Assembly: GCA_016185015.1 (NCBI GenBank)
Contig: JACPOI010000020.1
Coordinates: 62,001 to 126,000 of the forward strand
Length of the DNA: 64,000 nucleotides
Direction of reading: 5' to 3'
Source of the DNA: Burkholderiales bacterium
GTDB taxonomy: Bacteria > Pseudomonadota > Gammaproteobacteria > Burkholderiales > Burkholderiaceae_C
Shown here piece after piece: positions 1 to 36,024 of this stretch. The translations under genes were made by a program, and so were the position numbers. The notes below the pieces were generated by a model. That model made no database searches. It worked only from the letters and a program-made list of their open reading frames with translations, and was not told the DNA's origin. How positions within the stretch are numbered: the first letter of the stretch is position 1; each line of letters starts with the position of its first letter.

Positions 1-26
1 TTTCAAGCGTAGACCACACTGATCCG

Positions 27-686: not shown

Positions 687-894
687 CTTGTGGTTCCTCC
701 TTGATATTTGAGAATACTTTACAGATGCGGGCGAGCTTGATCAAGCCAGAATTCTCTGAAGAGACCGCAAGGTTAGATTCGTGGCTTATTACGGATCAAG
801 GTGGAGAGTTGAGAAAGGCCCGAACGGACTGCTAGGCTAAGGGTGGGAGTAAAAATGCAGCGCGCACGGCATGGGGCTTGCGGCTTGCTAATGC

Positions 895-1323
895 CTAGGA
901 GTCAGCCAGTCGCGCCGCAGCGCCTCGTTTACCGAGCTTGCGCACTTCAGCGATGCCCTGCAGCTGGCTGGCCCGTGGCTTTGACTGCCCCTTTTCCCAG
1001 TGGTAGATCGTCTGCAGCGAAACGCCCAGCAGTTTTCCCATTTCGGCAGCCGACAAGCCCAACTTTTTGCGCAGGCTGGCAAAGCCGTCAGCTCGAAAGC
1101 GCAGCTGAATCGTTTCTTCCACCATGTCCTTAGTGGCGGCGGCAGGCTTGTTCTTTTTTAGTTTGGCAATCAAGCGGTCCTGTTCGGCCAGACGCCGCTT
1201 GAGGGCGGCGATGTCGCTACGGTACTGGGACGAGGCTTTCTTCAGGGCCTCGGTTTCGGCACGGATCTCTTTACGGGCAATGCGGGAGATCTCTGCTTTC
1301 AGAAGGCTAGCGATATTGGCCAT
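895..1323 (-). CDS. XRE-family helix-turn-helix regulator with N-terminal coiled coil
   Basis: A 142-residue protein. Residues about 1-60 are Lys/Glu/Ala-rich with heptad-like spacing and should form a coiled coil. Residues about 80-125 hold a Cro/C1-type helix-turn-helix: LRKKLGLSAAEMGKLLGVS followed by TIYHWEKGQSKP, the usual 'recognition helix then W-E-x-G' pattern. A DNA-binding regulator is therefore likely. Proteins with the same layout are common on plasmids and islands. Which genes it controls is not evident: it stands alone, about 200 bases from the exported protein and 50 bases upstream of the end of the AAA operon on the same strand. Confidence 0.75.
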   Translation of the reverse strand: MANIASLLKAEISRIARKEIRAETEALKKASSQYRSDIAALKRRLAEQDRLIAKLKKNKPAAATKDMVEETIQLRFRADGFASLRKKLGLSAAEMGKLLGVSLQTIYHWEKGQSKPRASQLQGIAEVRKLGKRGAAARLADS

Positions 1324-1380
1324 TTTGTTCTTTGTTGTTGGTAACGATCACATCATCTTACAAGCCCGTCGAGTTCTCGG

Positions 1381-1530
1381 TTATTGACCCCAGCGGGGTT
1401 GCAGCTCGACCTCCATCAGACGCCTGGCCAGGTCCTTGAACTCGGAATGGATATCGCCCACGAACCAGTTCCGGCGCAATGTCTCGCCGTAGCGCTGGTC
1501 GAACTCGGTGATCATATATTCGGTCGTCAT
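1381..1530 (-). CDS. Small hypothetical protein, last gene of the AAA+ operon
   Basis: A 49-residue frame beginning MTTEYMITEFDQRYGE. It starts 8 bases after the stop codon of the preceding gene, on the same strand, which suggests translational coupling. A longer in-frame start upstream would overlap that gene by about 100 bases and is unlikely. The composition (acidic and aromatic residues, amphipathic helix near LARRLMEVEL) looks like real protein, but no family is recognised. It could be an accessory subunit of the ATPase operon. Confidence 0.45.
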   Translation of the reverse strand: MTTEYMITEFDQRYGETLRRNWFVGDIHSEFKDLARRLMEVELQPRWGQ

Positions 1531-1537
1531 CTCACGG

Positions 1538-2071
1538 CTACCCGTCCTTAGTGTCACGGAGCTTGTCCCAGAAGGGCGGCAAGCCTTCAGGCCGGCGACG
1601 CTGTGCCTTGTGCTCGGGACAAAGCACCAAGGCGTAACCGCCATCTACGTCCTGGACTCCTTGCTTTCCACACACCAGGCAGACGCGCCTGGTTGCCTGC
1701 TCAGCCAGCAAGGCCAGCCGACGAATCTCGGAATTGATCTCCTCAAAACCGTGGTCCCGGTTGTCAAGGGCCTCTTGCCCACCGGGCTCAAGCTGGGTCA
1801 GGACACCCTCTGGCGTCTGGATGTCCATGCGCAGGTCCGGCTCACGGCCCTCGAACTCGAAGTAAAAGCGTGCCGAGCCGAACTTCTCTTTGACCTGGGT
1901 CCAGTGGAAGCCACGCTTGTTCGGTCCCAGTACCTGGTCTACGTCTGAGCACAGCTGGGCAAAGACCACCACCCAGCCCTTGGCCATGGCGATGCCCAGT
2001 TTCGGGTCGCTGAACTGGTAGGGGTAGCGTGCTTGCAGATCTTTGAGTGACTGGGGTTGTTGGGTATCCAT
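1538..2071 (-). CDS. Hypothetical protein with C-terminal Cys pair, partner of AAA+ ATPase
   Basis: A 178-codon gene lying 24 bases downstream of the AAA+ ATPase gene in the same operon. I chose ATG 2071 because AAGGA stands seven bases before it; a TTG two codons upstream is possible. The middle (residues about 40-75: GFHWTQVKEKFGSARFYFEF) is beta-rich. Near residues 130-155 the pattern CLVCGKQG...LCPEH could bind a metal ion, though it has only three Cys and one His. Its position beside a Lon-like ATPase suggests a substrate adaptor or effector, but this is inference; no named family is recognised. Confidence 0.6.
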   Translation of the reverse strand: MDTQQPQSLKDLQARYPYQFSDPKLGIAMAKGWVVVFAQLCSDVDQVLGPNKRGFHWTQVKEKFGSARFYFEFEGREPDLRMDIQTPEGVLTQLEPGGQEALDNRDHGFEEINSEIRRLALLAEQATRRVCLVCGKQGVQDVDGGYALVLCPEHKAQRRRPEGLPPFWDKLRDTKDG

Positions 2072-2095
2072 TTGCAATCCTTTTTTGCATGAGAT

Positions 2096-3397
2096 TCAGT
2101 GCAGCAAGCCGGCTGGGGGCGTGTCCTCGCCAGAGAACTCGCTGGCGTCACGATGCACCTGTTCCGGCAGATCGGTCAGGGCTATCTGGTGGCGCCGATC
2201 CACTCTGGCCGCGGCATAGGCCCGCTTGAGCGCCTGGATCTGTTCTCGGGCACTGAGGTGGGCGACGAAGCGCACAAGCTGCTTGGCCGGCGGCTGGAAG
2301 CCAGGCAGGTTCATTTCCTGGTGCACTTCCTGGGCGATCACCTCGGCCATCTGAAGCGCTTGAGCTCCTGTGGGCTGCTCGATCCAGAACTCCTGGAACC
2401 GGGAGCGCAGGGAGGCAGGAATCCTGTCCAACTCATTGGCTGTGGCGATCCAGACCACCCGGCTGGCGTTGAACTCGAAGTCCAGGCTGATGTCGCGCAC
2501 ATGGCTCGAAGTCACTGGCTCCAAAAGGGAGTGCAAGGAGGCAACGGCGTCACCCTCGCGCCGCTTCCCAGCTTTGTCGATCTCGTCCAGCAGGATGACC
2601 GGGTTTGCGTATCTGCCCAGCACCACTGTCTCAAAGACGGAGCCATAGGTGGTGTTGCCCCAGTGCTTGTCCGAGCCGAGCAGAGAAGAGGCGTTGCGCC
2701 CGTTGTCGAAGGGCATGCGATGGATGTCGGTTCCCAGTGCCTTGGCCAGCTCCTGCGAAAAGCGGGTCTTGCCGATGCCCGGGTCTCCTCCCAGCAGGAT
2801 GGGCGGGATGAGGAAGGGCTTGCCCGTCAGTCGGGCGAAGGCGAACTGATCCCGGACCAGCTCCAGCACGGGCAAGAAGTGCGGGAAGGCCCGGCACAGC
2901 CGCTTGTAGTCCCGCCGGCCGATCACTGGTTGGGCTAGAACACGATAGTTCCCCTTGACCTTGAGCTGCTTGTAGAGCGCCTCATTGCGCCTGTGGATGT
3001 CCTTGTCGGGCGTGCGAGCCTTGTGGTCTTTGATGAGCTTAAGGGGTTCGAGCACGTCGTGGACGGCGATGAACCCCTCGGTCTCGGCCGCCTTGGCAGT
3101 TTCGGCTGCGGCCTCTTCCAGTTCCTTCTTCTCGATAACAGGGTCGAGTTCGCTGCCTAGCCCTGACCGTGGCGCGAAGGGCGTGGGCGGGGGTGACGCG
3201 GTGGCGGACCTGCTGTTCCGGAGGTCCAGTTCTTCCTGGGCCTTGACGGCCTCAGCGGCAAGCCGCTCCTCGCTCAAGGTCTGCAGCAGACGGCTGGGCA
3301 GGACGAGCGCGATGCTCCGAAAAGAACGGTCTAGATCGACGGAGTGGACACCGTAGCCTGGAGGGGCTGAGGTCTCATCATCTGTGTTCTGTCTCAT
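2096..3397 (-). CDS. Lon-type AAA+ ATPase without protease domain
   Basis: The 433-residue protein has a charged, low-complexity N-terminal half (Pro/Ala/Glu-rich, residues 50-110) followed by an AAA+ module. Walker A is GGDPGIGKT (residues about 203-211), Walker B is VILLDEIDK (about 267-275), a sensor-1-like segment is IATANELDRIP, and an arginine-finger segment is SLRSRFQEF. The order and wording match the ATPase part of Lon, but the chain ends after the lid, with no Ser-Lys protease domain. It may therefore remodel or unfold a partner protein. AAGGAGCCC precedes the ATG. It is second in a minus-strand operon with three small unassigned genes. Such stand-alone Lon-like ATPases occur in mobile and defence regions; a defence role here is inference. 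Confidence 0.85.
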   Translation of the reverse strand: MRQNTDDETSAPPGYGVHSVDLDRSFRSIALVLPSRLLQTLSEERLAAEAVKAQEELDLRNSRSATASPPPTPFAPRSGLGSELDPVIEKKELEEAAAETAKAAETEGFIAVHDVLEPLKLIKDHKARTPDKDIHRRNEALYKQLKVKGNYRVLAQPVIGRRDYKRLCRAFPHFLPVLELVRDQFAFARLTGKPFLIPPILLGGDPGIGKTRFSQELAKALGTDIHRMPFDNGRNASSLLGSDKHWGNTTYGSVFETVVLGRYANPVILLDEIDKAGKRREGDAVASLHSLLEPVTSSHVRDISLDFEFNASRVVWIATANELDRIPASLRSRFQEFWIEQPTGAQALQMAEVIAQEVHQEMNLPGFQPPAKQLVRFVAHLSAREQIQALKRAYAAARVDRRHQIALTDLPEQVHRDASEFSGEDTPPAGLLH

Positions 3398-3436
3398 GCT
3401 GGGCTCCTTTGACTGGTGAGTCAGGAGCCCTGGCGT

Positions 3437-3712
3437 CTAAGCGTGTATTGGGGTGATTCGCTTGAGCCGGAACTCCTGGACGGAATTCGCGATGGGGGTG
3501 GTACTCCGGGTGACGGTCCAGGCGCTGCCTGCGAACCGACCAGCGGATACCACCGAGCGAATTCGTGCGTCGTAAGAAAACCGCATGGACATGGAGAGGA
3601 CGGAGCGTTTGACGGAGGATGTCAAGGCACGCGCAGGCACCCGGCCGGCGTGCGGCTGGTTAGGTAACTGGGGTGCGGGGGTGAACACTTGTTTGCTCCG
3701 GTCGGTGGTCAT
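3437..3712 (-). CDS. Small hypothetical protein, first gene of the AAA+ operon
   Basis: A 91-residue frame starting MTTDRSKQVFTPAP and ending 39 bases before the AAA+ ATPase gene on the same strand. The C-terminal half (RFSYDARIRSVVSAGR...SAWTVTRS) has a plausible beta-strand pattern. There is no known domain and no strong ribosome site, so it is a likely rather than certain gene. Its promoter region contains two back-to-back 15-base repeats (3747-3776). Confidence 0.4.
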   Translation of the reverse strand: MTTDRSKQVFTPAPQLPNQPHAGRVPARALTSSVKRSVLSMSMRFSYDARIRSVVSAGRFAGSAWTVTRSTTPIANSVQEFRLKRITPIHA

Positions 3713-4128
3713 AGATTACCGGAGACCCTTAGAAACGCAAAGCCAGCTAAAAAATTCCCGACTAATAAATTCCCGATATCGGTTTTGATATTGAGTCGCT
3801 TGTGTTGAATCGCTCGTACGTTCAAAAGAATCGAAGAAGTGATCGCTATCGGGTAAAAGGGGCAGCTTGCATTTAAAGGATGTCCGACTGCTTTTGGCCG
3901 CTGAATCTAGGCGTTCAGCACAGATGTTCGGGAAGACTGCCGATTTGATAACCAGCAATTCACTGTCGTCGGCCTCAACTAACCACTACAGCTGAGGCAT
4001 CGGCCATTGATGCTGTACAAGAGTATGTAGCGGTTCGCCGCTGGCTTACCGCAGCCAGATAGAGGCTTTAGATTCCGCGCTGATAGCCGAACGAGCCTAG
4101 CCTATGAAAGTGTCGCCGACTAGATCTG
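3713..4128. other. Gene-free stretch between the AAA+ operon and the PfkB gene
   Basis: About 415 bases without a convincing gene. It holds the tandem 15-mers above and AT-rich promoter-like sequence near 3740-3800. An 80-codon open frame on the minus strand (3716-3958) has no ribosome site and an implausible composition. I see no terminator hairpin after the PfkB gene. Confidence 0.5.
3747..3776. repeat. Two adjacent 15-bp direct repeats, possible operator
   Basis: CTAAAAAATTCCCGA (3747-3761) is followed without a gap by CTAATAAATTCCCGA (3762-3776), identical in 14 of 15 positions. They lie 35 to 64 bases upstream of the start of the AAA+ operon, where a regulator could bind. A further partial echo (GATATCGG then TGATATTG) follows. 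Confidence 0.5.
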
Positions 4129-5211
4129 TCAAAAGAACGACGAAAGTCGCCCAGGCTGAGGTGTAGCAGAAGTTAGATCCACACAGCAAACCGAATCGAG
4201 CCGCTGGTGCGAAAGGTCCGGGCCAGTCCACTCCGGTGCGCAGACACCGTCCAGGATCTGTTGCGCCATCGCTAAGGCGTCCGACGCTTGCCAAGCACGC
4301 ATCATTCCGCGCGCGCCGACGTGTCGCACGCTTAGAGAAGCGATGGACTGTCCCAGCCGCAAAGAACGATAGATGTCGTTATAGTCAAGATCTTGAAGTT
4401 CCGTTGTCTCACGGCTAGCGAAAAGTGCGTGCAGGAAGCCCGCCGTGCACCAATCGCCGGCCCCTGAAGTGTCAGCAACCGAACTTGTGCGAAGTGCCGG
4501 CAAATGGACCCAGTCTGCCGCTAGAGAATGCTTTCGGAAACGTAGGCCAGACGCACCTAGCGTTTGAATCTCGACGAAGCCTAAAGATAGATGGTGATCC
4601 AGTGGTTCAGAGATCCGGTCGACCGAATACTTCACCACGTGCGCGCTGCTGAGCGCAGCGTCAAAGAGAGTGCGGTCCGTAGCAATGGATGAAGGCTCGA
4701 AGACTACAAAGGCGCCACCTGCACGAGCGGCCCGAGCCATGCGCACTGTGCCGGCGGTGACCCGGTCAAAGAAGAAAACATTCGACTCAGCGGCGCAGCG
4801 TACGAATTCATCACCGCCGCTGTCGACGAGGTTCTCATGAAACCGCCTTGACTGACCGCAGACAGGGCAAGCGAAGCTGTAGCGAGGTGCATCGGATGGT
4901 CCGCCGAAAAACTGATAAAGCAGGGGACTCGTGAGCCCGCGGTCCAGCCTCACATGACGCATGTTCGCGCCGAGCTTGGTGAATTCTCGGTGGATGGTCG
5001 CGCCTACGTGGTCACGCCCCAGATTCACGAGCGGAAGGGTTTCCCAACCCAGGAAGGCGAGGATCGAAAGTACGTTTCCCGTGGATCCACCAATGCCTGT
5101 GTAGGCCAGTTGAGATCCCGTGCCCAGCATTACGTCAAGCGTTATGAAACCCGCTCCCGATACGCGGGAGCGCAGACTCTCAGTCGCTGATAGTAACGAG
5201 CTTGTCAACAC
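4129..5211 (-). CDS. PfkB/ribokinase-family sugar or nucleoside kinase with possible zinc knuckle
   Basis: A 360-residue member of the PfkB carbohydrate kinase family. It shows the N-terminal glycine motif GGSTGNV (residues 41-47), the substrate-domain entry LVNLGRDHVG (61-70) and the anion-hole/catalytic signature DTSGAGD (247-253), whose Asp is the general base. Expected reaction: ATP-dependent phosphorylation of a ribose- or nucleoside-like substrate. Unusual: residues 115-139 contain C-x2-C-x6-H-x13-C (CPVCG, H125, C139), a possible zinc-binding insert not seen in ordinary ribokinases, inside the lid region that normally closes over the sugar. It is last in the seven-gene run. Its start overlaps the end of the previous gene by 32 bases, though a shorter start is possible. 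The exact substrate cannot be read from sequence. Confidence 0.85.
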   Translation of the reverse strand: MLTSSLLSATESLRSRVSGAGFITLDVMLGTGSQLAYTGIGGSTGNVLSILAFLGWETLPLVNLGRDHVGATIHREFTKLGANMRHVRLDRGLTSPLLYQFFGGPSDAPRYSFACPVCGQSRRFHENLVDSGGDEFVRCAAESNVFFFDRVTAGTVRMARAARAGGAFVVFEPSSIATDRTLFDAALSSAHVVKYSVDRISEPLDHHLSLGFVEIQTLGASGLRFRKHSLAADWVHLPALRTSSVADTSGAGDWCTAGFLHALFASRETTELQDLDYNDIYRSLRLGQSIASLSVRHVGARGMMRAWQASDALAMAQQILDGVCAPEWTGPDLSHQRLDSVCCVDLTSATPQPGRLSSFF

Positions 5212-6247
5212 GGAAATGCCATCGGTGAGTCGGGGTTCTTCGTACGTCAGGTGATAAGTTACCTTTCACATCGTAACCGACTGTCTCCAAGTAGAAAATT
5301 GGTAGTCTATAGGAGAGCGCCGCAAGAAGCATACCGATACCAGGAAGCCTACGCCCAACTGGGGACAAAACGGTTTGCGACATTAGACCGGGGCCGGTGA
5401 GAGCTTCCACACGAGTCGTATGGAGGCGCACTATCGACTGGAAGACATCCATCGGATCTGACTCATGCGCACGGATGAAATTCAGCGGTGATTCGAACCA
5501 CTCCCGCTGCCAGTAATCGCGATGTTCGAACATCAGCTCGTCAGCGCGGCGTGGATTCACTGCCGGGAAAGGCAGGACCGGGCAGACCTCTTCGGGTGAG
5601 TCTAGCTCTCGGAACATTGTCTGCAGCGACGTACCCGCCCTCTCGGACAGCTGCACGACCCACAGTTTAAGCGCTTTGGTGAATTCGTCGGTCTCAGTTT
5701 CAGCGGGAAATCCGTGCATCCAGTCGCCGCGGTCGTTCGAAACGGACTCGACGTTAGAAAAGGCTTGGTTGCTGTCAGCCACAAGAAGATGTACACGAAT
5801 TGGAGTTCGCTGCGACAGTTGGTAGAGGAGCTTGACTATCGGAAAGGCCGTGCATCGCGACATGCCCGTCGCGTCGACCACAACATCTGTATAGACCTTC
5901 GCGCTCAACCACTGGTGTACCTGCATGCAGGCATTGCGGCCTCCTACGGGGGCACCGTCTTCGGCAAGGATTGCTAAATCGACAAACTGTATGGGCGTAC
6001 ATGCGATGTCTCGGAGCTGTTGCTCGCGGGCAAAAGCCAATTGGGTGATCACCGCCGGAACTGCCGGACGCTTCTCGTGAAAAAAACACATGTCAACGTT
6101 CGGAAGCGGACCTAGGCGCTTCGGAAAATACAGAACGTCGGGGCTGAAGCCAACGTTACCGATCAACAGTGTGGCCCCAGCGGTCGGAAAATAGTCGGCG
6201 ATAAAATGGTCGACATCGTCAAGGGAGAGGTTGGGCACACGAATCAT
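5180..6247 (-). CDS. Unassigned 355-aa protein of the PRTase/ORC-CDC6 cluster
   Basis: I do not recognise a named family. The protein has no signal peptide or membrane segment, so it should be cytoplasmic. Residues about 110-165 look like a Rossmann-type beta-alpha unit (VYTDVVVDATGMSRC, then IRVHLLVADSN). The C-terminal third contains SQTVLSPVGRRLPGIGMLLAAL and IFYLETVGYD, read as a loop-helix followed by a strand. Its ATG overlaps the stop codon of the ORC/CDC6 ATPase gene (ATGA), so the two are probably made in fixed ratio. Such conserved but unnamed partners often provide the sensing or effector part of conflict systems; that is inference. It could also be a ligand-binding sensor domain. 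Confidence 0.65.
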   Translation of the reverse strand: MIRVPNLSLDDVDHFIADYFPTAGATLLIGNVGFSPDVLYFPKRLGPLPNVDMCFFHEKRPAVPAVITQLAFAREQQLRDIACTPIQFVDLAILAEDGAPVGGRNACMQVHQWLSAKVYTDVVVDATGMSRCTAFPIVKLLYQLSQRTPIRVHLLVADSNQAFSNVESVSNDRGDWMHGFPAETETDEFTKALKLWVVQLSERAGTSLQTMFRELDSPEEVCPVLPFPAVNPRRADELMFEHRDYWQREWFESPLNFIRAHESDPMDVFQSIVRLHTTRVEALTGPGLMSQTVLSPVGRRLPGIGMLLAALSYRLPIFYLETVGYDVKGNLSPDVRRTPTHRWHFRVDKLVTISD

Positions 6248-8133
6248 GCGGCACTCCCAACCGCGGTCTTGAGTTGGCGAAGCGTTCCTTCAACGAACCC
6301 TCCACGACTGTGCGTTAGACCCTTGGCGATGATGGCTACGCCACCGAGCTCTAACAACGCCCAGGTCTTACCTTTGCACTCATAGGGTTCAACGAGCACT
6401 AGCGCTTGATAGGCCAGCGCGTAATGAAGTACGCGTGCAAGCTCGTCGTTCGGATCCAGATTTTCCAGATCGGAACGCAGGATGCCGTAGGCATTCGCGC
6501 CGTCGGAAAGCGGGGCATTGGGACGGAGGGTCAGGTCCTGACACCTGCCGCCTATGAAGTCAACAAGCTTGCGTACCTGCGGGGCGTAGGGATAATCCCA
6601 TTGGGCAATCAAGTCCACGGCCTGCTCGCGCACGGCCTTGTGCTGCTGACGCGCATCCAGTGCTAGCGGCTTTCCTCGGATTGCCTGTGTCTCCAGTCGA
6701 TCTACCAACACACTCGCGAGGGTCACGAACTGCTCGATATTTTCGTTCGCAGCATCAGCTAGCCTCTCGAATCCAAAGTAGAACGGGCGGTCAAACCGAT
6801 GGAGCATCTGTAGCTCGGCTCCAATTACAACGTGACGCTGCACCTTAGATTGTTCCTCCTCTGATGAAACATCGGCGGGCACTCCGAACAACGAGCGCTG
6901 CGGCGTTCGCTTTAGTTCCCTCTCCAGCATGATGTGGGTAACGGCGGCCTTCACGTCGAGCGTGAGATCCGTAGGATAAGTCTCCTCCATGGCCTCTATC
7001 TTTTCGCTGGTCAATTGGTTTTCTTCAATGAGACGAGCGTTTTCAGAATGGAGAATATGCAAGTCTGTATCAGATAGAGCGGGTGGGCGGGCCGTGTTTA
7101 GCAAATTCTTGAGGCTCAGAAAGCTGCCGCGTCGATGAAAGGCCGCCAGGGGCTGTAGATAGCGTCGAGCGACATCCTCGGCAATTGAGCGGAAAGCTTG
7201 GCGGTTGCGGTTATCGGTATCCTGAAGCAGGATGCGTACGCGGTCTCGCCCAGGATTGGTGCCGGGCGAAGCGGTCTCTTCATCACGCAGGACGCGCCTG
7301 AAATCTTCCAAATTCAATGAGTCGATGCGCGTCAGCATCCAGCGCGCGATCTTGATCTCCCGATCCCGGAGCCAGAGGTCCACGTCTTCCAACTGGGTCG
7401 GATGCAACTCGTGCGCATCGTCGATGATGACCATGGGTTTGAGACGCAATGCCCTGCCACGCCAAGCGGCAGAGATCTCGACCGATTCGATAATGGCAAA
7501 TGGTGCATATGCCACATCGATCAGATGCTCACCCAATTCGTCTTCTGCGGGAGCAACCAGCGCATTAATGAGTCTGAAAATTGCGCGCTCCGTCATACGA
7601 GCTCGCTCGCGGAACGCTTCCAAGTCATCGGCGCTGACTGCGTCCCGTGCCGCCTCCGCATTAGGAGTAGTGATGATGTGGACGTGCTTTAGGTCGACGC
7701 CAACATCCTCCATTGCGCGGAGCCATCCTAGAACTGTCTTCGCTTCAATCATGGAGCGAAGTAGGCGGTGCCGTAGGCGAGCATCGTACGGCAAGTCCCA
7801 GATTGATCTAAGCTGACCACCAGCAGGGAGACGCAAGGCGAGAACGGCAGGCTCGAGATCGTCAAGGACATCTGCCTTTGCTAATGACGCTAATAGTTCC
7901 CGAACGTCGGAGTTTCCCTTGAAGTCCGGCACCGCTGCGAGCGTGCGAAGCTCAAGCAGGCGAGCCAGAGTAGTCTTGCCCGAGCCAGGCGAACCAACCA
8001 CCACTACCAGCCGATCAAACAGTCGCGTCGACTCTCGCTGGAAGAAGCGTTTGATGGGCTGAGGGCTGATCAGTGGCAGGAGCTCGTTGGCGTCGCGGAT
8101 GAACTCGTTTGCCCGTTTGTGCCAGGGATTCAT
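6244..8133 (-). CDS. ORC/CDC6-type AAA+ or STAND-like ATPase
   Basis: A 629-residue cytoplasmic protein. A short helical N-terminus precedes Walker A GSPGSGKTT (residues 47-55). Walker B is MVIIDDAHEL (234-243), with 'DDAH' of the ORC/CDC6 and STAND classes rather than DEAD or DEID. A long helical C-terminal region follows and could act as winged-helix or sensor module. ORC/CDC6-like ATPases encoded beside a PRTase-like gene are, to my knowledge, a combination noted in comparative genomics of prokaryotic conflict systems. Its ATG overlaps the stop of the PRTase-like gene (ATGA) and its own stop overlaps the next start, so it sits in the coupled core of the operon. Expected role: ATP-driven sensing or switching; the trigger is unknown. 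Confidence 0.75.
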   Translation of the reverse strand: MNPWHKRANEFIRDANELLPLISPQPIKRFFQRESTRLFDRLVVVVGSPGSGKTTLARLLELRTLAAVPDFKGNSDVRELLASLAKADVLDDLEPAVLALRLPAGGQLRSIWDLPYDARLRHRLLRSMIEAKTVLGWLRAMEDVGVDLKHVHIITTPNAEAARDAVSADDLEAFRERARMTERAIFRLINALVAPAEDELGEHLIDVAYAPFAIIESVEISAAWRGRALRLKPMVIIDDAHELHPTQLEDVDLWLRDREIKIARWMLTRIDSLNLEDFRRVLRDEETASPGTNPGRDRVRILLQDTDNRNRQAFRSIAEDVARRYLQPLAAFHRRGSFLSLKNLLNTARPPALSDTDLHILHSENARLIEENQLTSEKIEAMEETYPTDLTLDVKAAVTHIMLERELKRTPQRSLFGVPADVSSEEEQSKVQRHVVIGAELQMLHRFDRPFYFGFERLADAANENIEQFVTLASVLVDRLETQAIRGKPLALDARQQHKAVREQAVDLIAQWDYPYAPQVRKLVDFIGGRCQDLTLRPNAPLSDGANAYGILRSDLENLDPNDELARVLHYALAYQALVLVEPYECKGKTWALLELGGVAIIAKGLTHSRGGFVEGTLRQLKTAVGSAA

Positions 8134-9251
8134 GATCGGACGTCTGAGTGGCGTTGACGGCGGGGAAAAAGAGGCGACATGTGATTATCTTTGTCGTACT
8201 TTTCGGCTTTGGGATCGCTTCGTGCCCACAGAGTTGCTACCGAGTTGTTTGGCGTATTGTGGTCAAGCACCAGCGGCAGGCTGCACTGCTTGTAGCCCAG
8301 CGCGATGTTTTTCCCCGTGTGGGTGGTTTCGATCCCGGGGTCGTAGCGCTTTCCCAGCAGCGCGGCTAGGTCTGGATGGGCGGCCGAGGAAACCACGATG
8401 TCCTCTGGAAGCACGTACGAGAACGACGGAATGAAGCGCATTCCAGACGATTGAGCCTGAAAGCGCGCCAGCAGGTCCGTAACTTTAGTGCTCGCAGCCT
8501 TGGAAGCCAAATAGTGATGGACCTGAATGTGCGCGTCGTAACTAATCAGGGGCGCTTCATGGCGCGTCTTGTCGACCTCTTCGATAAAACGCTGTACCTT
8601 GCCGCCCCACTCGCCATTGCCTTCCTCTCTAATCGAGGTGGTGCCAGACGCAGTGAAGTCGTCGATCAGACACACCCACTCAAATGTTGCTGGTGCAGTC
8701 GATTTGATCGCATTCAGCCGTTCCTTTAGCTTCTCTTTCAGTTTGGCTTGTTTGAGCGCCGAAATCTCGATCATGGCGACAATCTGCTCATTGTTGACCG
8801 CGCCCTCGTTGTAACGGCGGAAAACGTCAATCCGGGCGCCATCGCTGACTCCGACGTAGAGGGTTCGGCACTGTATCTCCTTCAGGCGACGACTAGCTCT
8901 AGGGTCATCGTCGACACGGTAAACAGGCAGGTTAAGATCCCTTGCGACAGCGCTGCGCATCTCGCGCTCAATTGCGGGGCCAGTGAGACTGACAAGGTGA
9001 TGCATCTCGTCTTGGCTGATGTACACCAGTTGATCGCGCAGCAGCCTCCACATGCATTCGCGATCCACCTTGTCGTACTGCGACAGCCATCGCAGTAGAT
9101 GCACATAAAACCGATGGCCAGGTCCGTACTGTTGGTAGCTGTCGAACTTGTAATTCACCATCAGGTCGAGCCAAGCGAACTCGCTCGTCGCGCGTTCGAC
9201 TGCCCACTCCATTAGGTCAGCAACCAATCGCTTTGCCAATGTCTCCTTCAT
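8130..9251 (-). CDS. Phosphoribosyltransferase-like protein (PRTase-CE type)
   Basis: A 373-residue cytoplasmic protein. The key site is VCLIDDFTASGTT at about residues 193-205: two acidic residues followed by a T-A-S-G-T-T loop, the PRPP-binding signature of type I phosphoribosyltransferases. A second conserved-looking segment is LGYKQCSLPLVLDHNTPNNS (residues 318-337), which I associate with the PRTase-CE group found with ORC/CDC6 ATPases. The helical first 130 residues resemble no metabolic PRTase, and no orotate, adenine or uracil specificity element is seen. It may transfer or split a phosphoribosyl group as an effector. Its stop overlaps the ATPase start. GAGGGGG lies about 9 bases before its ATG. 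Family call fairly secure; substrate unknown. Confidence 0.75.
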   Translation of the reverse strand: MKETLAKRLVADLMEWAVERATSEFAWLDLMVNYKFDSYQQYGPGHRFYVHLLRWLSQYDKVDRECMWRLLRDQLVYISQDEMHHLVSLTGPAIEREMRSAVARDLNLPVYRVDDDPRASRRLKEIQCRTLYVGVSDGARIDVFRRYNEGAVNNEQIVAMIEISALKQAKLKEKLKERLNAIKSTAPATFEWVCLIDDFTASGTTSIREEGNGEWGGKVQRFIEEVDKTRHEAPLISYDAHIQVHHYLASKAASTKVTDLLARFQAQSSGMRFIPSFSYVLPEDIVVSSAAHPDLAALLGKRYDPGIETTHTGKNIALGYKQCSLPLVLDHNTPNNSVATLWARSDPKAEKYDKDNHMSPLFPRRQRHSDVRS

Positions 9252-9290
9252 GCACCCATCCCCCTCTTCTCTTTTTTTGCTCGATCAGTC

Positions 9291-11282
9291 CTAGCCTAGG
9301 CTCTCACGTACTGAATATTTGGCTTGGTCCGAGAACTCAGCTGAGAACCTCGCCTCGCCATCAGCTGATTCTAGATTTTTCAAATAGTACTCGGTACCGC
9401 GCACGCCGCTCAACATACGCGGCAGGAGATTCCAGCATTGATTAACGCCTGGGGGGACCGCGTCGACGCTTAGAGCAAGGCCCTCTGACAGCAGTTCGTA
9501 GTCGTTGCCACCGAAATCACCCCCATCGCCCATGCGGAGCACTTGCGTCAATGGGTTCAGTCCGAGCCGACTGCATACGGCTTTAACCACAAACAGCTTG
9601 CCGGCCTTCTCAGTGACAACGTCTATCGAATGCCCCGAGATGAATGCCCTCCAGCCTTCGCTGCCCTCTCGTGCGACCCACTCGTTGACTGCCGCGATGA
9701 GTCGCACCTTATCGCTACCGGAAACGCCGCGCAGACTTAGTTGTCCAGCATCCGCGCTGGGATCCACCTTCGTCGACAATGCCCTTGTTTTGTGCAGCCA
9801 TTGAGCCAGCTCTTTTAAGCGCGGGTCGGCAGGCGGCGCGATGACATGACTGTCCGTTAGATTGAAGATGCAGGAGCCGGTGTAGCATCCCATCGTTACC
9901 ATGTGCCACACATCCGCAGGCAGCTTGTTCTGTAATACCGTCCTGAGCTTAATTCCCCGCCCCGTGGCAATGGCCAGGTGGACTCCACTACGTGCCAATC
10001 GCGTCAGCTCAGATGTGATCCCAGAATCGATCCCTTCGAAACGCTTAACTGTGTCGCAGAACGTGCCGTCAAAGTCACATACCAAAAGTCGAAATCGCGC
10101 GGCCTGCAGGCGCTTTATGTAGCACCGAGCGTGCTCGATCAGCACCTCTGGGTTGTCACCGGAGACTTGCTTTCTTAGCACTGCTGGGGTTTGAGGTAGA
10201 ACATGGGGTACGAGGATCGAGACGTCCAAGGCGTAAAGATCACGACCAAACTGAGGCACGACTGGTTGACCAGGATCAATGTGCTCCCCAGCCCATGCCT
10301 GTGTGATCGCCATCCCAGCCAACACACTAGCGATCTCGGCGCCCGCATCGCTGATGCGAGGCAGAGCCACTTCAAGAATAGGCCCGGCCTCCGCTGGCAA
10401 CAGTCGGATGGTCTCTGCAGCCAGCGGGTCATCTTCCGTGCAGAAGCTCACCACAGTCACTGGTTCGGTGAGATTCGACAGCTGTAGATGCCGGCCATGG
10501 GCGAATTGCCTGAAATTGCAGACTTGGCCAAACGCCAGTGCTCCCTCTGTTAACTTCGACTCCAGGTCGATGGCCCCGAGACGGCCGATGGAACCGTACA
10601 GGATCAGCGCGCGCCTTGATCGCTTAACAGCACCAGCCTGATCAATGCGGCTCCTGAACCGCTGATACCAGTCGACCAGAAGCGGTAACTCGGATGTGAC
10701 GTCGGAATCGACTGCATATGCTCGCCAGAGCAGAACCAGGGTGGCGACAAGCGAGTTCGTCGCAAGATAACCGTCCTTGCCCCAGGGCATGTCGTAAGCT
10801 GCCAGAGATGCCGCTCCAGTCTTCTCACTCAACTCAACTAGCGGGCTGCTTGAGCGCAGCGTCAGGCCGATAGTTGGGCAGGCACGAAGCCGAAGCTGTT
10901 TGGCAGCGGCAAGGATGTCGAGGTTCTTGCCTTCTGCAGACAACAGTAGCCCTGCAGCATTCGTTGCTGCGTTTGAGGGCACCTGAAAGACATCGAGTGG
11001 TGTGATGGCTTGCGATGGGCGACCGTGTACCCGGAAGTGTTGATCCGCCGCAAAGGCGGCCGCCGTGAAGGAGCCGCCCGAGCCAACAGCCAGGAGGCCG
11101 CGATCGCCATATAGTTGAATTGCTCGGCGCAGTAGAGCAATGTCTTGCTCTGCCGCCCACTGTATGGTCGCGGGAAGCTGTTGCAGTTCGTCTATGAATC
11201 GTTTCCCCATGTGCCCAAGCGATTGAAGTCTCTTATTGTGGCTCATTGGTTCGATCTGCCAAGGTGGCGCGTTGCTAGTCAC
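9291..11282 (-). CDS. SIS-domain and HAD-phosphatase fusion protein
   Basis: A 663-residue two-part enzyme. Residues about 40-390 contain SIS-type phosphosugar-binding folds: the loop GSGGSFTAA (67-75) and a second module from about 220 (LILYGSIGRLGA). Residues about 398-630 are a Cof-type HAD phosphatase: nucleophile motif DFDGT (403-407), motif II IATGRG (438-443), and metal-binding motif GDGGDFGGND (585-594). Together these suggest recognition or isomerisation of a phosphosugar plus removal of its phosphate. SIS-HAD fusions are not a housekeeping arrangement. GTG at 11282 or ATG at 11246 may be the start; neither has a clear ribosome site. It lies 39 bases upstream of the PRTase-like gene and 122 bases downstream of the NADAR gene, all on one strand. 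Confidence 0.85.
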   Translation of the reverse strand: MTSNAPPWQIEPMSHNKRLQSLGHMGKRFIDELQQLPATIQWAAEQDIALLRRAIQLYGDRGLLAVGSGGSFTAAAFAADQHFRVHGRPSQAITPLDVFQVPSNAATNAAGLLLSAEGKNLDILAAAKQLRLRACPTIGLTLRSSSPLVELSEKTGAASLAAYDMPWGKDGYLATNSLVATLVLLWRAYAVDSDVTSELPLLVDWYQRFRSRIDQAGAVKRSRRALILYGSIGRLGAIDLESKLTEGALAFGQVCNFRQFAHGRHLQLSNLTEPVTVVSFCTEDDPLAAETIRLLPAEAGPILEVALPRISDAGAEIASVLAGMAITQAWAGEHIDPGQPVVPQFGRDLYALDVSILVPHVLPQTPAVLRKQVSGDNPEVLIEHARCYIKRLQAARFRLLVCDFDGTFCDTVKRFEGIDSGITSELTRLARSGVHLAIATGRGIKLRTVLQNKLPADVWHMVTMGCYTGSCIFNLTDSHVIAPPADPRLKELAQWLHKTRALSTKVDPSADAGQLSLRGVSGSDKVRLIAAVNEWVAREGSEGWRAFISGHSIDVVTEKAGKLFVVKAVCSRLGLNPLTQVLRMGDGGDFGGNDYELLSEGLALSVDAVPPGVNQCWNLLPRMLSGVRGTEYYLKNLESADGEARFSAEFSDQAKYSVRESLG

Positions 11283-11404
11283 CTACTCACATGGTGTGTT
11301 CGATCTTCCTGATGCAGCTGTTTCGTTTCTAGACGAAGGCTGTTGAAAGGTCACCTATGCATAGCGTTGCCTGCAAGATGCGGCCAACCTCATCGACGAT
11401 GATC

Positions 11405-12019
11405 CTACGCGGACAAGGATTCGGCTGTTGGTCGGCGCTTTGTACGGGGTGTGTCGCCTGCAGTCGTTTTCGGCTTCGCAGCGCTACTCCTGATTGCGAC
11501 CTTTGGTTCCGTCTTGCTCTTGATCTTCGCGGCAGCGGCGGTCGCAGCGAGTTCGGCTCGCACTTCCATAAGCAGTTCGCCTAGCTTGTTCTTGCCGACG
11601 CCGCCGACCTCACCCCATAAACGGTTCACGGCGTTGTCGACCGTAGCGGACTCCACCAATCGCGCCGTGCCGGTGCTCAGAAGCAGTTGCTTCAGATCTT
11701 CGTGCTGTGTGTACTTGGCATGCAGGACGCGTTTCATCCGGTCAAACTTGATTCTCGACCAATCCGAGTTGATATCCCAAACGTAAAGGCCATGGGCGGC
11801 CATAGCTAACAGCGCGGGGGACGGTGCCTCCATCAACCACTTCCGAACCTCAGGCTTACGGGCCTTGCCAGCTTGGTAGGCGTGTTCCGAGGTCGCGAAC
11901 TTCTCACCCTCGAACTCAATTTCTCGTCGATACAGATTGCTGAAGGCGCCGTATGGTTTCTCGCTCGCACGGTAGAAGCGTACTTCGGTCAACTCAATCT
12001 TGGTTTTGGTTTGGGTCAT
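11405..12019 (-). CDS. NADAR (YbiA-like) family N-glycosidase
   Basis: The 204-residue protein carries the NADAR/YbiA signature: GAFSNLYRREIEFEG near residue 24, TSEHAYQAGKA near 43, and WGEVGGVGKNKLGELLMEVR near 136. A basic, low-complexity tail of about 50 residues follows. Family members cut N-glycosidic bonds: YbiA-type enzymes act on riboflavin-pathway intermediates, and others remove ADP-ribose from guanine bases modified by DarT-like toxins. Either chemistry would suit a cluster of ribose enzymes. Its ATG overlaps the stop of the upstream XRE gene (ATGA), so the two are co-expressed. Whether it belongs to the same system as the genes below, or is a separate two-gene unit, is open. Confidence 0.85.
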   Translation of the reverse strand: MTQTKTKIELTEVRFYRASEKPYGAFSNLYRREIEFEGEKFATSEHAYQAGKARKPEVRKWLMEAPSPALLAMAAHGLYVWDINSDWSRIKFDRMKRVLHAKYTQHEDLKQLLLSTGTARLVESATVDNAVNRLWGEVGGVGKNKLGELLMEVRAELAATAAAAKIKSKTEPKVAIRSSAAKPKTTAGDTPRTKRRPTAESLSA

Positions 12020-12297
12020 TTATGAGTCTCCTGCGCCGTTTCAGCGCTGGTGGGGTCCTGTGTTGCTGTTTTACGCCAAAGCGTCAGCACCTCTATGGCG
12101 TCGTTCGCTTCCAACGCAGACATTAAATTGAGGAGCCCGCCCATTGCCATGGGCGACGTGGCGCCGCGCATCCACTCGGCCATCGTTCTCTCGCTGGTGC
12201 CGGCCATCTGCGCCATGTCGCGATAGGTCAGACGGCGGTCCTGTGATACCTGGAGCCGGCGCATGATGTGACCTAGTGTTTTTTGTATTTGAGACAC
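12016..12297 (-). CDS. Small XRE-type regulator heading the operon
   Basis: A 93-residue protein with a helix-turn-helix: LTYRDMAQMAGTSERTMAEWMRG (about residues 23-45), where TSERTMAEW is the recognition helix. It probably binds its own promoter, since a TTAATTAA doublet lies 11 to 28 bases upstream. I take GTG at 12297 as start; no clear Shine-Dalgarno sequence precedes it, so translation may be weak or leaderless. It is the first gene of a minus-strand run of seven, and its stop overlaps the NADAR start. Confidence 0.75.
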   Translation of the reverse strand: MSQIQKTLGHIMRRLQVSQDRRLTYRDMAQMAGTSERTMAEWMRGATSPMAMGGLLNLMSALEANDAIEVLTLWRKTATQDPTSAETAQETHK

Positions 12298-13903: not shown

Positions 13904-16894
13904 TTGCTGCGGCTTTTTGCCAGATCGCAAGCGTTGTTGTCCAGCGTGTGGAGCCTAGTCGCTCTGATCGCGTTTGTTTGTGCTGGGCTCTACTTTCAGC
14001 CAGCGCATGCAGCGATTGAGCGCTACAGCTATGACCCACTGGGCCGGCTCATCCAGTACGTTGATAGCGCTGGACAAGTCACCGAATATACCTATGACGC
14101 AGCCGGCAATCTGACCTCGGTGACAGGAGGTGGTGCCGCTTCGAACTACGTGCCCGTGCTGAGCTCGGTCGCACCCAGCTTGATTCGTCGCGGAGAAACC
14201 AAGAGCCTGCTCATCACAGGCCAGCGCTTGCAAGCCGGGAGTCTGCGCACCTCCAACCCAGGGTTGGATTTGCTCAACGTTCGACAGACTGCAACTCAGA
14301 TTCAGGCGGACCTGATTGCCGATCAGGCGGTGCCAGTGGGTGCGCAAACTCTGAGTTTCACCAATGCCCAGGGCACAGCTTCTATCGCCATCACCGTGGC
14401 ACCTGTGCTGCCCACCCTCTCTGTGGAGCCTTCGCCGCTGGCTCTGCCACCAGACAACAACGCACGAAACATCACCTTGCGCCTGTCAACCTCCGATGTC
14501 GTATCTCACACCATCAACCTGGTCATGAGCGACACCAGCAAGGCCACTATTTCACCGGCTTCTGTCACCATAGCTCCGGGTCAGTCGTCTATCCAGGTCA
14601 GCGTTACACCCAAGGTAGCAGGCTTCACGTCGTTGCAGCTCAGCTCCACCACATTGGCGTCGACGTCGGTGCCGGTCTTCATCACGGCCGACTTCAGGGG
14701 TGTCAATACAAGTCAGGCGATGCCTGTCGGCGTAGTTGTGGGTTCCGCAACCCAGCAGCCGTCCAACACGACGTTAGCGTTATTCAATGCTCCCCAGGTA
14801 GGTGTGGTGGTGGGGCCCGTGCTCAAGGGCATCAACCCGGCTGGCATGCCAGTCGGACAAACGCAGAATCTGGTGGTCAGTGGTAGCGGCATCCCGGTGG
14901 GCGCCACTTTGTCGGTCTTGCCGGCGACAGGCTTGAGTCTGGGTGCACCAACTGTAGCGGCCGATGGTTCGCAAATCTCCGCAACCATAAGCGTCGGGGC
15001 GGCTGCGGCTACAGGCGGCCGCAGTGTCGTGGTCAAAGACGCGAGTGGCAAGGTTTTGCCTTTCGTTCCGCCGGCATCCTCGCAGCTGATTCTGACCTCG
15101 GGTCAACCCGAAATCGACGCCATCGAGCCCCTGTATGCGAGGGCGGGCACCCTGCTTCAGCTCAAGGTGCGCGGGCGTCATTTGCAGAACGGGCGACTGG
15201 CAATCTTGCCCGGAACGGATATCGCGGTCGATTCGCAGCCCGTGATCAACAGTGCCGGTACCGAGCTCACCGCTACGTTCCAGATTTATCCGCTGGCCGC
15301 ACTGGGACCACGTCTGATTCAGATCACCACGCCTTCGGGCCAGAGCAGCGCCGAATTCAACGCGGCCAACCAGTTCAACATCGTGAGCCAGATCAACGGC
15401 ACGGTGGGCCCGGTCTTCGCACCGGTCGTGGGCATCATGGTGGGCAACGGCTCAACTGCAACGTCCAGCCAGTCCATCGGTCCGGTCGCAGCGGCCGCGC
15501 TGGGGGTTGTAGTAGGCCCCGCAGCCTATGGCGTCACGCCCAAGGTTGCCGTGGTTGGCACGTCGCTTAATCTGACGGTCACGGGGGTTGGCCTGCAGGC
15601 GGTGCAGTCGGTCAGCTTGCTGACTCCAGATGGCATCACCACTTCAGCCTTCAGCGTGAATCCCGAAGGCACGATCCTGACCCTGCCCATCTCGGTGGAT
15701 GCCGCAGCGGCCAAGGTGTCGCGCAAACTCGTGCTTCGCACGGCCACAGGCCGGCTGCCTTTTGTGCGCGACGCTGAGAGCAGTTTCCTGGTCGCCGCCC
15801 CGGCGCCGGAGATCATCGCCACCGCGCCTCAGGTCATCAAGGCGGGTACGAGCACCACGCTCAACCTGCGCGGCAAGAACTTCCGCGATGTGCTGGGTGT
15901 GCGCTTCGAGCCGGCCGATGGCCTCGCTGTCACCGCCAATGCCACCATCACAGCCAGCGCCGACGGTACTCTGCTCACGGTGCCCGTAACAGCCACGGCC
16001 TCTGCTGCCACGGGGCCGCGCACTGTGATCGTGATAGCCGCCGGTGGTGAGTCCAGCAATGTGGCGATGGCGGCCAACACCGTGCAGGTTGCTCAGCAGG
16101 TCGGGGCTACCTATGCAGACATCAGTGCGCCGGCAGTTGGCTTGCTAGTGGGTGCCGCTACAGCAGAGCCAGCCGGCAGCGCTTTGCTGGTGTCGGCACC
16201 GCTGGTTGGTGTGTTGGTACAGACGCCGCCTGTTGCAGTGACGGATAACCGGATTGTGGCCAGTGCCAATGTGGGTGTGACTGTTGGCGCATTCGTCAAC
16301 AGCATTGCCCCGGCCACGCCAGATGGTTTCCTGATCGGCTCCACCTCGACGCTGGTCGTACAGGGCCTGGGTCTTGACCGGGTCAGCGCCATTACATCGC
16401 TGGGTCAGGCAGGCATCACTTTTGGCAGTTGGACGGTGAATACGCAAGGAACCTTGCTGACGGTGCCGGTGACGGTTGCCGCCAATGTGCCCTCAGGCCG
16501 TTACGGCGTGTCCCTGAGGCAGACCGTCAATGGTGTTACCAGCAGACTCACGACGGTCCCCGCCAGTGCCTTGCAATTCAATGTGGGGTCCTTGCCTACC
16601 TTGCTCGAATCGGTGGCGCCCATCGTTCTGGAGCAGGGGAAGAATTACACCTTCACCGTGCGCGGAGACGGGCTCAAGGATGTCTATGAGCTGTTGACCG
16701 AGCCTGGCACCGGTGTGCAGTTCGGCACTGTCCAGTGGGCCACGGATGCTCTGGGTGAATTGCTCACAGTCAGCGTGCGGATCGACGCGACTGCCGCCAT
16801 CGGCAGCCGTGTCGTGCGTCTGCGCGTGCCAGGTAGCTTGACTTCTTCCGAGGCTGTACCCGCCAACACAATCACCATCGTTTCGCCGCAATGA
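13904..16894 (+). CDS. Large exported protein with YD motifs and IPT/Ig-like repeats
   Basis: A 996-residue secreted or surface protein. The start is TTG 13904, because GGAGG stands eight bases before it and the ATG seven bases upstream is out of frame. A signal peptide (residues 1-36, ending AHA) is followed at once by two YD units (RYSYDPLGRLIQYVD and EYTYDAAGNLTS) of the RHS kind. The rest is a series of beta-sandwich repeats of IPT/TIG type, each opening like ISSVAP...RRGETKSLLITGQRL, separated by linkers with the recurring phrase VGVVVG (near residues 266, 300, 508, 540, 748, 773). Likely an adhesin-like or matrix protein. It is first of three exported proteins upstream of a secretion operon, which may export them. 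Confidence 0.75.
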   Translation: MLRLFARSQALLSSVWSLVALIAFVCAGLYFQPAHAAIERYSYDPLGRLIQYVDSAGQVTEYTYDAAGNLTSVTGGGAASNYVPVLSSVAPSLIRRGETKSLLITGQRLQAGSLRTSNPGLDLLNVRQTATQIQADLIADQAVPVGAQTLSFTNAQGTASIAITVAPVLPTLSVEPSPLALPPDNNARNITLRLSTSDVVSHTINLVMSDTSKATISPASVTIAPGQSSIQVSVTPKVAGFTSLQLSSTTLASTSVPVFITADFRGVNTSQAMPVGVVVGSATQQPSNTTLALFNAPQVGVVVGPVLKGINPAGMPVGQTQNLVVSGSGIPVGATLSVLPATGLSLGAPTVAADGSQISATISVGAAAATGGRSVVVKDASGKVLPFVPPASSQLILTSGQPEIDAIEPLYARAGTLLQLKVRGRHLQNGRLAILPGTDIAVDSQPVINSAGTELTATFQIYPLAALGPRLIQITTPSGQSSAEFNAANQFNIVSQINGTVGPVFAPVVGIMVGNGSTATSSQSIGPVAAAALGVVVGPAAYGVTPKVAVVGTSLNLTVTGVGLQAVQSVSLLTPDGITTSAFSVNPEGTILTLPISVDAAAAKVSRKLVLRTATGRLPFVRDAESSFLVAAPAPEIIATAPQVIKAGTSTTLNLRGKNFRDVLGVRFEPADGLAVTANATITASADGTLLTVPVTATASAATGPRTVIVIAAGGESSNVAMAANTVQVAQQVGATYADISAPAVGLLVGAATAEPAGSALLVSAPLVGVLVQTPPVAVTDNRIVASANVGVTVGAFVNSIAPATPDGFLIGSTSTLVVQGLGLDRVSAITSLGQAGITFGSWTVNTQGTLLTVPVTVAANVPSGRYGVSLRQTVNGVTSRLTTVPASALQFNVGSLPTLLESVAPIVLEQGKNYTFTVRGDGLKDVYELLTEPGTGVQFGTVQWATDALGELLTVSVRIDATAAIGSRVVRLRVPGSLTSSEAVPANTITIVSPQ

Positions 16895-17022
16895 GGAGTC
16901 GGATCATCATGAAAACCTGTTTGGATACCTCGGTGCAAACACCCGCTCTCAAGCAAGCGGTCGTGTGCCCAGAAAACCCCGAGATTTCAGTTGTATTGCC
17001 TTTGATGTTCAGGAGGATCGCC

Positions 17023-27713: not shown

Positions 27714-27734
27714 CGGGGCGCGAGGGGCGCCGCC

Positions 27735-35499: not shown

Positions 35500-35505
35500 G
35501 GGCGT

Positions 35506-36024
35506 ATGCGCGGCCTATTTGTACCGCTGAAGCAAGGGTGCGGCCGACTGACGCAGCGGGGGCAAGGCTTCACGCTGGTCGAGCTACTCGTGACCCTGGC
35601 CATCCTGGCGGTGCTGGCCAGTCTGGTGGTGCCGGTAGCGCAAATCCAGGTGCAGCGAGGCAAGGAACAGGAACTACGGGCGGCGCTGACCGAAATTCGT
35701 GCGGCTATTGATGCCTACAAAAAAGCTGGCGATGAAGGACGGGTACCACGCGATGCGGGCACGACGGGGTATCCCAAGACTCTGGATGTCCTGGTCGAAG
35801 GAGTCATTGACCAGCGAGATCCGAAGCGCGGCAAGCTGTACTTTCTGCGGCGCATTCCCCGCGACCCATTTTTCGAAGACCCGAATGCCGAAGACGCCCA
35901 GACCTGGGGCAAGCGCTCCTATGCAAGTGAACCGACAGACCCGGCCGAAGGGGACGATGTGTACGACGTCTTCACCTTGTCGACGCTGACGGGTTTGAAC
36001 GGTGTGGCTTTGAGGCGCTGGTGA
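35506..36024 (+). CDS. Type II secretion pseudopilin (GspG-like)
   Basis: A 172-residue prepilin with a long leader (about 21 residues) ending in [20 protein letters not shown], with Glu at +5. The mature part has a helix rich in Glu/Lys ([22 protein letters not shown]) and a C-terminal domain containing [16 protein letters not shown], the G-type core. It is a pseudopilus subunit of the same operon. Confidence 0.85.

Follow-up and report, generated by a model that had tools for sequence, protein, structure and literature searches.

The 64,000-nucleotide stretch analyzed here (hereafter the window; positions 62,001 to 126,000 of contig JACPOI010000020.1 of a Burkholderiales bacterium) carries a seven-gene cassette whose parts belong to known families and which looks like an unstudied, probably phage-resistance, system. 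It unites a PRTase-CE phosphoribosyltransferase, an ORC/CDC6-like AAA ATPase, and a CARF-family protein, which form one co-evolving module, with a SIS-HAD fusion and a PfkB-type sugar kinase, which form a second, and optionally with a NADAR N-glycosidase and a small regulator. The reading that we favor, and to which we give about even odds (roughly 0.5), is that of a mobile conflict system, most likely anti-phage, in which the PRTase would be an effector gated by the ATPase and the CARF protein, and in which SIS-HAD, PfkB, and NADAR would process the product of this effector. No description of the full cassette was found in the literature that we searched, and our claim of novelty is limited to that search.

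As an earlier note on this DNA had claimed, seven open reading frames lie packed head to tail on the minus strand, from 12297 to 4129, at the very positions that it gave. In the order of transcription, they encode an XRE/Cro-type helix-turn-helix (HTH) protein of 93 aa, an optional gene and likely regulator (12016..12297); an equally optional NADAR/YbiA-type N-glycosidase of 204 aa (11405..12019; PF08719, E 4e-26; YbiA 2b3w, E 5e-30); a SIS-HAD fusion of 663 aa that joins a NagB-II/GlmS-like SIS half to a HAD-IIB phosphatase half (9291..11282; HAD PF08282, E 2e-6); a PRTase-CE phosphoribosyltransferase of 373 aa, the presumed effector or writer (8130..9251; PF24390, E 3e-12); an ORC/CDC6-like AAA ATPase of 629 aa (6244..8133; PF24389, E 8e-19); a 355-aa protein (5180..6247); and a PfkB/ribokinase-type sugar kinase of 360 aa (4129..5211; PF00294, E 7e-11). 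Four of the six junctions are overlaps, of 4 bp between XRE and NADAR, between the PRTase and the ATPase, and between the ATPase and the 355-aa protein, and of 32 bp between the latter and PfkB; the NADAR and SIS-HAD genes are separated by 122 bp and the SIS-HAD and PRTase genes by 39 bp. The Pfam matches of the NADAR, PRTase-CE, ORC-CDC6-like, PfkB, and HAD families all exceed their cut-offs, which supports the families named in that note, when the XRE protein matches HTH_26 (E 9e-4) and HTH_31 below cut-off.

The same seven genes, XRE included, are present in a relative (L003; locus entries are numbered with L and genomes with G), the DNA of which aligns with the window at 79-82% identity across 4128..12297, except in a region of some 0.17 kb surrounding the NADAR/SIS-HAD spacer, while the flanks of the two loci give no blastn match at E<=1e-5. 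Because gene content and DNA are thus conserved between unmatched flanks, the cassette is not a chance cluster, and since the homology ends where the flanks differ, we take 4128..12297 as its borders. A promoter and terminator scan gave nothing above shuffled sequences, and a search for repeats returned no flanking repeat worth claiming.

Homologs were drawn from 17 plasmid records, two genome-collection contigs, whole genomes, and viral contigs. Among the 31 locus entries compared, four (L002, L029, L051, and L064) are cut inside the cassette by the end of a contig or stretch, which leaves 27 loci with flanks; of these, L011 and L026 almost duplicate each other, the left edge of L017 is truncated, and L056 and L053 end 0.5 and 1 kb right of the cassette. 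In all 27, the PRTase, ATPase, and CARF genes are contiguous and in this order (with broken frames in L020). As every locus but L053 was found through its CARF gene, the presence of CARF is given by construction and only that of its partners is informative: SIS-HAD adjoins the triad in 26 of the 27 loci, PfkB in 23, and NADAR in 13. The core proteins for which the earlier note had proposed a neighborhood search do recur together, those of the triad in a constant order, and its seven-gene set holds in this core; NADAR and XRE turn out to be optional, the XRE profile having matched only the window and L003, with other HTH genes adjoining NADAR in L014, L019, and L021. The 26 loci with SIS-HAD divide into 13 with PfkB only, 10 with both PfkB and NADAR, 3 with NADAR only, and none with neither. 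We do not claim from this that NADAR and PfkB replace each other (p 0.22; L023 and L030, two of the three NADAR-only loci, look closely related by their CARF). In L014, an extra PRTase-ATPase-CARF triad without SIS-HAD or PfkB of its own (13960-18093) lies beside a full cassette.

The cassette is rare, and its hosts, where named, include Alpha- and Betaproteobacteria and one actinomycete (Paenarthrobacter). A sample of 398 genomes of the phylum gave seven with CARF, six of which were confirmed by profile, the seventh match (G077) being weak, confined to 45 residues, and unconfirmed by profile. The PRTase was found in eight genomes (five full-length and three weak matches). For SIS-HAD, 69 genomes gave a match, which is full-length in six and weak, partial, and no higher than 37 bits in the other 63. 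The five genomes with a full-length PRTase fall within the six CARF genomes, these are also the six with a full-length SIS-HAD, and the genes lie together; in the sixth CARF genome (G185), the contig ends inside the cassette. This joint occurrence bears out the view of one dedicated system put forward in the earlier note, as opposed to a housekeeping operon for sugars. In a second sample, of 240 genomes of one class, CARF was found in three, one of which is the seed genome; of the other two, one (L063) has all five core genes, and the other (L064) consists of a short contig carrying a split CARF and PfkB.

Several copies lie among genes of mobile elements. TniB/TniQ-type transposition genes are found near L011, L012, and L025, integrases near L010 and L012, and phage primase and Cas4-type exonuclease genes beside L051. 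The L053 cassette adjoins MuA- and MuB-type genes and is therefore carried by a Mu-like prophage. On the whole, we regard it as almost certain that the cassette is a dedicated mobile system. The Phages collection and a single-sequence scan of viral contigs gave no CARF match, and no match of the ATPase profile in viral contigs was confirmed. The window's own genome also holds, in L043 (G000:C42:1-18000, 4077-8896), a second SIS-HAD gene (584 aa) that is convergent with a single frame in which TniQ and a partial NADAR are joined, beside TnsA-like and RES-domain genes; this has the look of a second cassette in decay, adjacent to a Tn7-like element.

The division of the cassette into two modules is apparent from the way in which its proteins diverge. 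We compared pairwise identity matrices by Mantel r with 2000 permutations, without L003 and without the second copy of L014 and of L017 (n 14-17). The PRTase, ATPase, and CARF matrices correlate with one another at r 0.91-0.94 and those of SIS-HAD and PfkB at r 0.91, when correlations between the two sets are of r 0.49-0.66; none of these values was reached in 2000 permutations. The gene order agrees with this split: the SIS-HAD and PfkB genes are either paired, before or after the triad, or flank it from both sides. The cassette is thus made of two co-evolving modules, PRTase-ATPase-CARF and SIS-HAD-PfkB. NADAR shows another pattern, with a mean identity of 0.66 (12 sequences) versus 0.30-0.39 for the other families; likewise, in the seven loci with all six families (L003 left out), identity to the window protein is 0.58-0.73 for NADAR and 0.20-0.49 for the others. 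Such a pattern is compatible with a part whose chemical target is fixed, or with a later acquisition.

From its sequence, the 355-aa protein, which the earlier note had left unassigned, is a member of the CARF family (CARF6) and presumably the ligand sensor of the cassette. It matches the CARF6 models of PADLOC (PDLC01916, E 3.5e-103), and the three CARF6 models are matched by 20 of its 20 homologs. Moreover, all 24 PADLOC models touched by these homologs at E<=0.1 are CARF, Csx1, or CasR models, among them CARF-HEPN and type III-associated Csx1; matches to models other than CARF6 are weak, the best having E 1.7e-5, and each such model is hit by one to seven of the homologs. Neither Pfam nor the PDB sequences returned a CARF match for the protein, and no fused effector domain was recognized in it. 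The CARF6 family is reportedly named in the CARF census of Makarova et al. from 2020, of which the cassette protein would, by the PADLOC models, be a direct member.

CARF domains classically bind cyclic oligoadenylate (cOA), and the CARF sensor logic is what the cassette has in common with CBASS and type III CRISPR signaling. It differs from them in that no cyclase was recognized in the cassette, and mostly none in the genome. Our scans covered eight genomes that carry all or part of the cassette, some of them incomplete, with a SMODS profile that does not cover every CD-NTase. A SMODS cyclase was detected in one of the eight, namely the window's own; Csm1 (TIGR02578) passed its cut-off in none, with two sub-threshold matches; mCpol was found in none, no control genome having passed the mCpol cut-off either; and the scan of 10 window proteins gave no CD-NTase. 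Cas10-palm2 (PF22335) was searched only in the genome of the window itself, where it gave two matches just above cut-off; we read these as GGDEF-type and set them aside, because an E. coli control also passes that cut-off. As CARF thus occurs mostly without a recognized cyclase, its ligand is not obviously cOA, and the scarcity of cyclases is suggestive of some other ligand. A classical cOA circuit, in which CARF would answer cOA made elsewhere by CBASS or type III CRISPR and the PRTase and ATPase would form a stand-alone ancillary effector, seems very unlikely to us: the SMODS gene and the two PF22335 matches of the window's own genome speak for it, and the seven of eight genomes without SMODS, together with the eight of eight without Csm1 above cut-off, speak against it. 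The SMODS-type gene itself (G000:C17:229147-229614), which is CBASS-like, lies far from the cassette, about 103 kb past the end of the window. That a CARF recurs in company with a PRTase, in genomes mostly devoid of a recognized cyclase, may matter beyond this cassette, in that it points to a ligand other than cOA. A more specific proposal, which would make the cassette a new class of signaling and effector system, is that CARF senses a small phosphoribosyl-based molecule made by the cassette's own PRTase or sugar-phosphate enzymes rather than cOA, that the ORC/CDC6-type ATPase uses this molecule to release a phosphoribosylating effector, and that SIS-HAD, PfkB, and NADAR remove its mark; we consider this full chain rather unlikely.

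The PRTase, for its part, is on balance probably the effector. It matches PF24390 at 47.6 bits for a cut-off of 27, and its phosphoribosyl pyrophosphate (PRPP) loop is well conserved (D198, F199, and G203 in 18 of 18 sequences, D197 and S202 in 17, T204 in 11), as are H331, N332, P334, N335, N336, W342, F362, R364, R367, and H368 toward the C terminus (18 of 18). The earlier note had proposed phosphoribosyl- or ADP-ribosyl-type chemistry; the former is what this loop naturally suggests, while the latter found no direct support. In the ATPase, P49, G50, G52, and K53 of Walker A and D238 of Walker B are present in 20 of 20 sequences. Searches against solved structures gave no convincing relative of CARF, of the PRTase or, beyond the P-loop, of the ATPase. 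Both the PRTase-CE and the ORC-CDC6-like families (PF24390 and PF24389), the matches to which pass cut-off in the cassette, are said to be named in the conflict-system comparative genomics of Burroughs and Aravind from 2020.

Comparison with other members of the PRTase family is informative in this regard. The three weak PRTase matches of the 398-genome sample are two PRTase-CE proteins with a winged HTH (wHTH) beside a reverse transcriptase and one OLD-type TOPRIM fusion. The H..PN...W motif is common to the cassette PRTases and to all three of these proteins, the PRPP loop can be aligned in two of them, including the retron-type protein of L046, and the FxR end motif is found in the TOPRIM fusion only, so that the FxRxxRH ending of the cassette PRTases sets them apart from the two retron PRTases. 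As PRTase-CE occurs in retrons, in the TOPRIM fusion, and in the cassette, it would represent one effector family placed under at least three kinds of control. Type III retrons combine a reverse transcriptase and an ncRNA with a PRTase/winged-helix effector; no reverse transcriptase was recognized in the cassette, where the ATPase and CARF would take over the control role and to which the sugar-phosphate enzymes are added. RVT_1 matched none of the 10 window proteins scanned, and no reverse transcriptase is named in the 17 annotated plasmid loci, a statement that holds for their annotation, the hypothetical proteins in it not having been scanned. To our knowledge, no acceptor is known for the PRTase effector of type III retrons. 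PRTase and DNA-binding proteins characterize these retrons (PMC12548924); PRTase also stands in the abbreviation list of a figure legend on phage-tested systems, a list that does not specify which PRTase is meant (PMC13092281). The PADLOC label "PRTase_III-A" was considered as a pointer to type III-A CRISPR and rejected, since it fits retron type III. The type III retron-like pairs, PRTase-wHTH then reverse transcriptase, lie in L044 (8500-11172) and L046 (1639-4046), and the fusion of PRTase-CE to an OLD-like TOPRIM in L045 (8402-9949), a stretch that also has P-loop ATPase-like and integrase-like frames by eye.

A different division of labor is conceivable, in which the PRTase would make a nucleotide-like second messenger from an unusual base or sugar and PRPP, with CARF as its receptor and the ATPase as actuator, and in which the SIS isomerase, PfkB kinase, and HAD phosphatase would supply an activated sugar phosphate. 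ADP-heptose, made via GmhA, HldE, and GmhB, offers an analogy for such a supply. The SIS, PfkB, and HAD trio is indeed present, but the rfaE domain I match is weak (16.8 bits vs 345) and the SIS half resembles glucosamine-6-phosphate deaminases. The tight co-evolution of the PRTase, ATPase, and CARF, the rarity of the usual cyclases around CARF, and the near-constant presence of SIS-HAD, as expected of a needed supplier, agree with signal synthesis; no separate killing domain was recognized, however, which would leave the killer unexplained, PfkB is not seen in 4 of the 27 loci, and type III retrons use a PRTase of this family as their effector (PMC12548924). We therefore hold signal synthesis to be unlikely, and keep to a PRTase effector the product of which is processed by the companion enzymes.

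The companion enzymes are conserved at catalytic positions. In the SIS half, for which PF01380 alone gives E 0.007, below cut-off, the family profile matches structures of SIS-type glucosamine-6-phosphate deaminases at 2.5e-7, and the best-matching structures carry glucosamine-6-phosphate deaminase or phosphosugar isomerase as their annotation. E246, H262, G263, and R264 are identical in 18 of 18 sequences, E246 aligning with the Glu of the KLKE stretch in the deaminase structure, a residue that is the catalytic base in GlmS. The HAD half retains D403, D405, K562, and D586 in 18 of 18 sequences and D594 in 17. In PfkB, D26, G41, G42, N46, E172, and D253 are conserved in 16 of 16, at the ribose-contact and catalytic positions of ribokinases, and matches to ribose-1-phosphate kinase and ribokinase are weak and far below cut-off. 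A CPxCG motif, perhaps a metal-binding insert, is found in 9 of the 16 aligned cassette PfkB proteins and not in the other 7.

In the fructosamine pathway, FrlB and FrlD deglycate an Amadori product, and the pairing of PfkB with SIS resembles this couple. On this basis, the cassette might be a metabolic island that salvages or repairs an unusual ribosylated base or an Amadori-type sugar amine, useful on plasmids and without a role in defense, PfkB and SIS working like FrlD and FrlB. The deaminase- and isomerase-like matches of the SIS half agree with this, as do the copies L019 and L023, which adjoin catabolic genes on large plasmids. However, no transporter or other regulator recurs beside the cassette in the 17 annotated plasmid loci (by eye), the ORC/CDC6-like ATPase and CARF have no obvious place in such a pathway, and rarity (6 of 398 genomes) and carriage by a Mu-like prophage argue in the same direction, so that we judge a metabolic island highly improbable.

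NADAR, where present, keeps E45, K52, and E123 in 12 of 12 sequences, and its match to the NCBIfam "NADAR family anti-phage protein" is weak (62.6 bits against a cut-off of 240). By alignment to 8bau and 2b3w and by spacing, these catalytic and phosphate-binding residues correspond to E43, K50, and E125 of the P. nicotianae NADAR (PMC11543638). NADARs cleave guanine-ADP-ribose and riboflavin-pathway N-glycosides and are the antitoxins of DarT1 and YarT (PMC11543638, PMC11125620). The cassette has in common with the DarT1-NADAR and YarT-YbiA pairs a YbiA-type NADAR with its catalytic residues and, possibly, a pairing of writer and eraser; it differs in that its writer would be a PRTase, not an ADP-ribosyltransferase, and in that its NADAR is optional. 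These antitoxins and the carriage of the cassette on plasmids give some ground for viewing it as an addiction module that stabilizes plasmids rather than countering phages, the PRTase being the toxin, and NADAR and SIS-HAD/PfkB its enzymatic antitoxins. Eight kilobases and up to seven genes are nevertheless large for such a module, a switch made of CARF and the ATPase points to a signal that is conditional, and NADAR is optional; a toxin-antitoxin function thus appears improbable.

Under the conflict-system reading that we favor, the ORC/CDC6-like ATPase and CARF would form the switch, the ATPase holding or loading the PRTase and CARF adjusting this switch on binding a small nucleotide-type ligand. 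Once released, PRTase-CE could either transfer the 5-phosphoribosyl moiety of PRPP onto an acceptor in the cell or deplete PRPP. SIS-HAD and PfkB, as the second co-inherited module, would deal with the phosphosugar product, most likely by reversing or detoxifying it, and NADAR, where present, might cut N-ribosyl bonds of the same PRTase product. The direction of the SIS-HAD/PfkB step is the weakest part of this scheme: we rate reversal or detoxification by the companion enzymes, as opposed to supply, at slightly less than an even bet. Whichever their direction, SIS-HAD, PfkB, and NADAR are candidate processors of the product and so narrow down what the PRTase makes, which renders the question of its acceptor testable.

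Several observations weigh against this scheme. PfkB is not seen in the four loci already mentioned, and no NADAR is seen in 14 of the 27, including the short-flanked L056 and L053; G187, a genome rated 100% complete that has the cassette, holds no NADAR of the cassette family at E<=0.001. The NADAR matrix, moreover, has only a weak correlation with those of the triad and of SIS-HAD (r 0.29-0.34), its correlation with PfkB being of r 0.62, and NADAR correlations were reached by 0 to 124 of 2000 permutations. In L017, two PRTase-ATPase-CARF triads lie in tandem (2-3598 and 5800-10056) with no SIS-HAD in the stretch read, the left edge of which is cut. Finally, enrichment of defense genes nearby, which bears on the defense islands that the earlier note had proposed to look for, was not significant: on 12 plasmids, 4 of 77 neighbors versus 4 of 145 control proteins taken half a plasmid away had a PADLOC match at E<=1e-30 (one-sided p 0.28), the control matches including two mad3 and one RtcR-type regulator. 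Since it is not seen in the 14 loci or in G187, NADAR is not a required antidote, and we rejected it as an obligatory eraser.

Individual neighbors nonetheless include type I restriction and PrrC (L055), Gabija (L013), Shedu (L025), and TmtA (L014), from a hand-picked set of 10, of which 9 matched something at E<=1e-5 and which does not give a rate. That the PRTase belongs to a family of retron effectors and that a prophage carries the cassette make phage defense plausible, and we deem it likely that the cassette is a defense-type system.

Elsewhere in the window, one open reading frame of 2657 aa with a signal-like N terminus occupies 18756-26729 and was assigned no identity, and a run of genes at 27273-36975, several of which have prepilin-like N termini (GFTLxELLV), resembles by eye a cluster for type II secretion or for a pilus.

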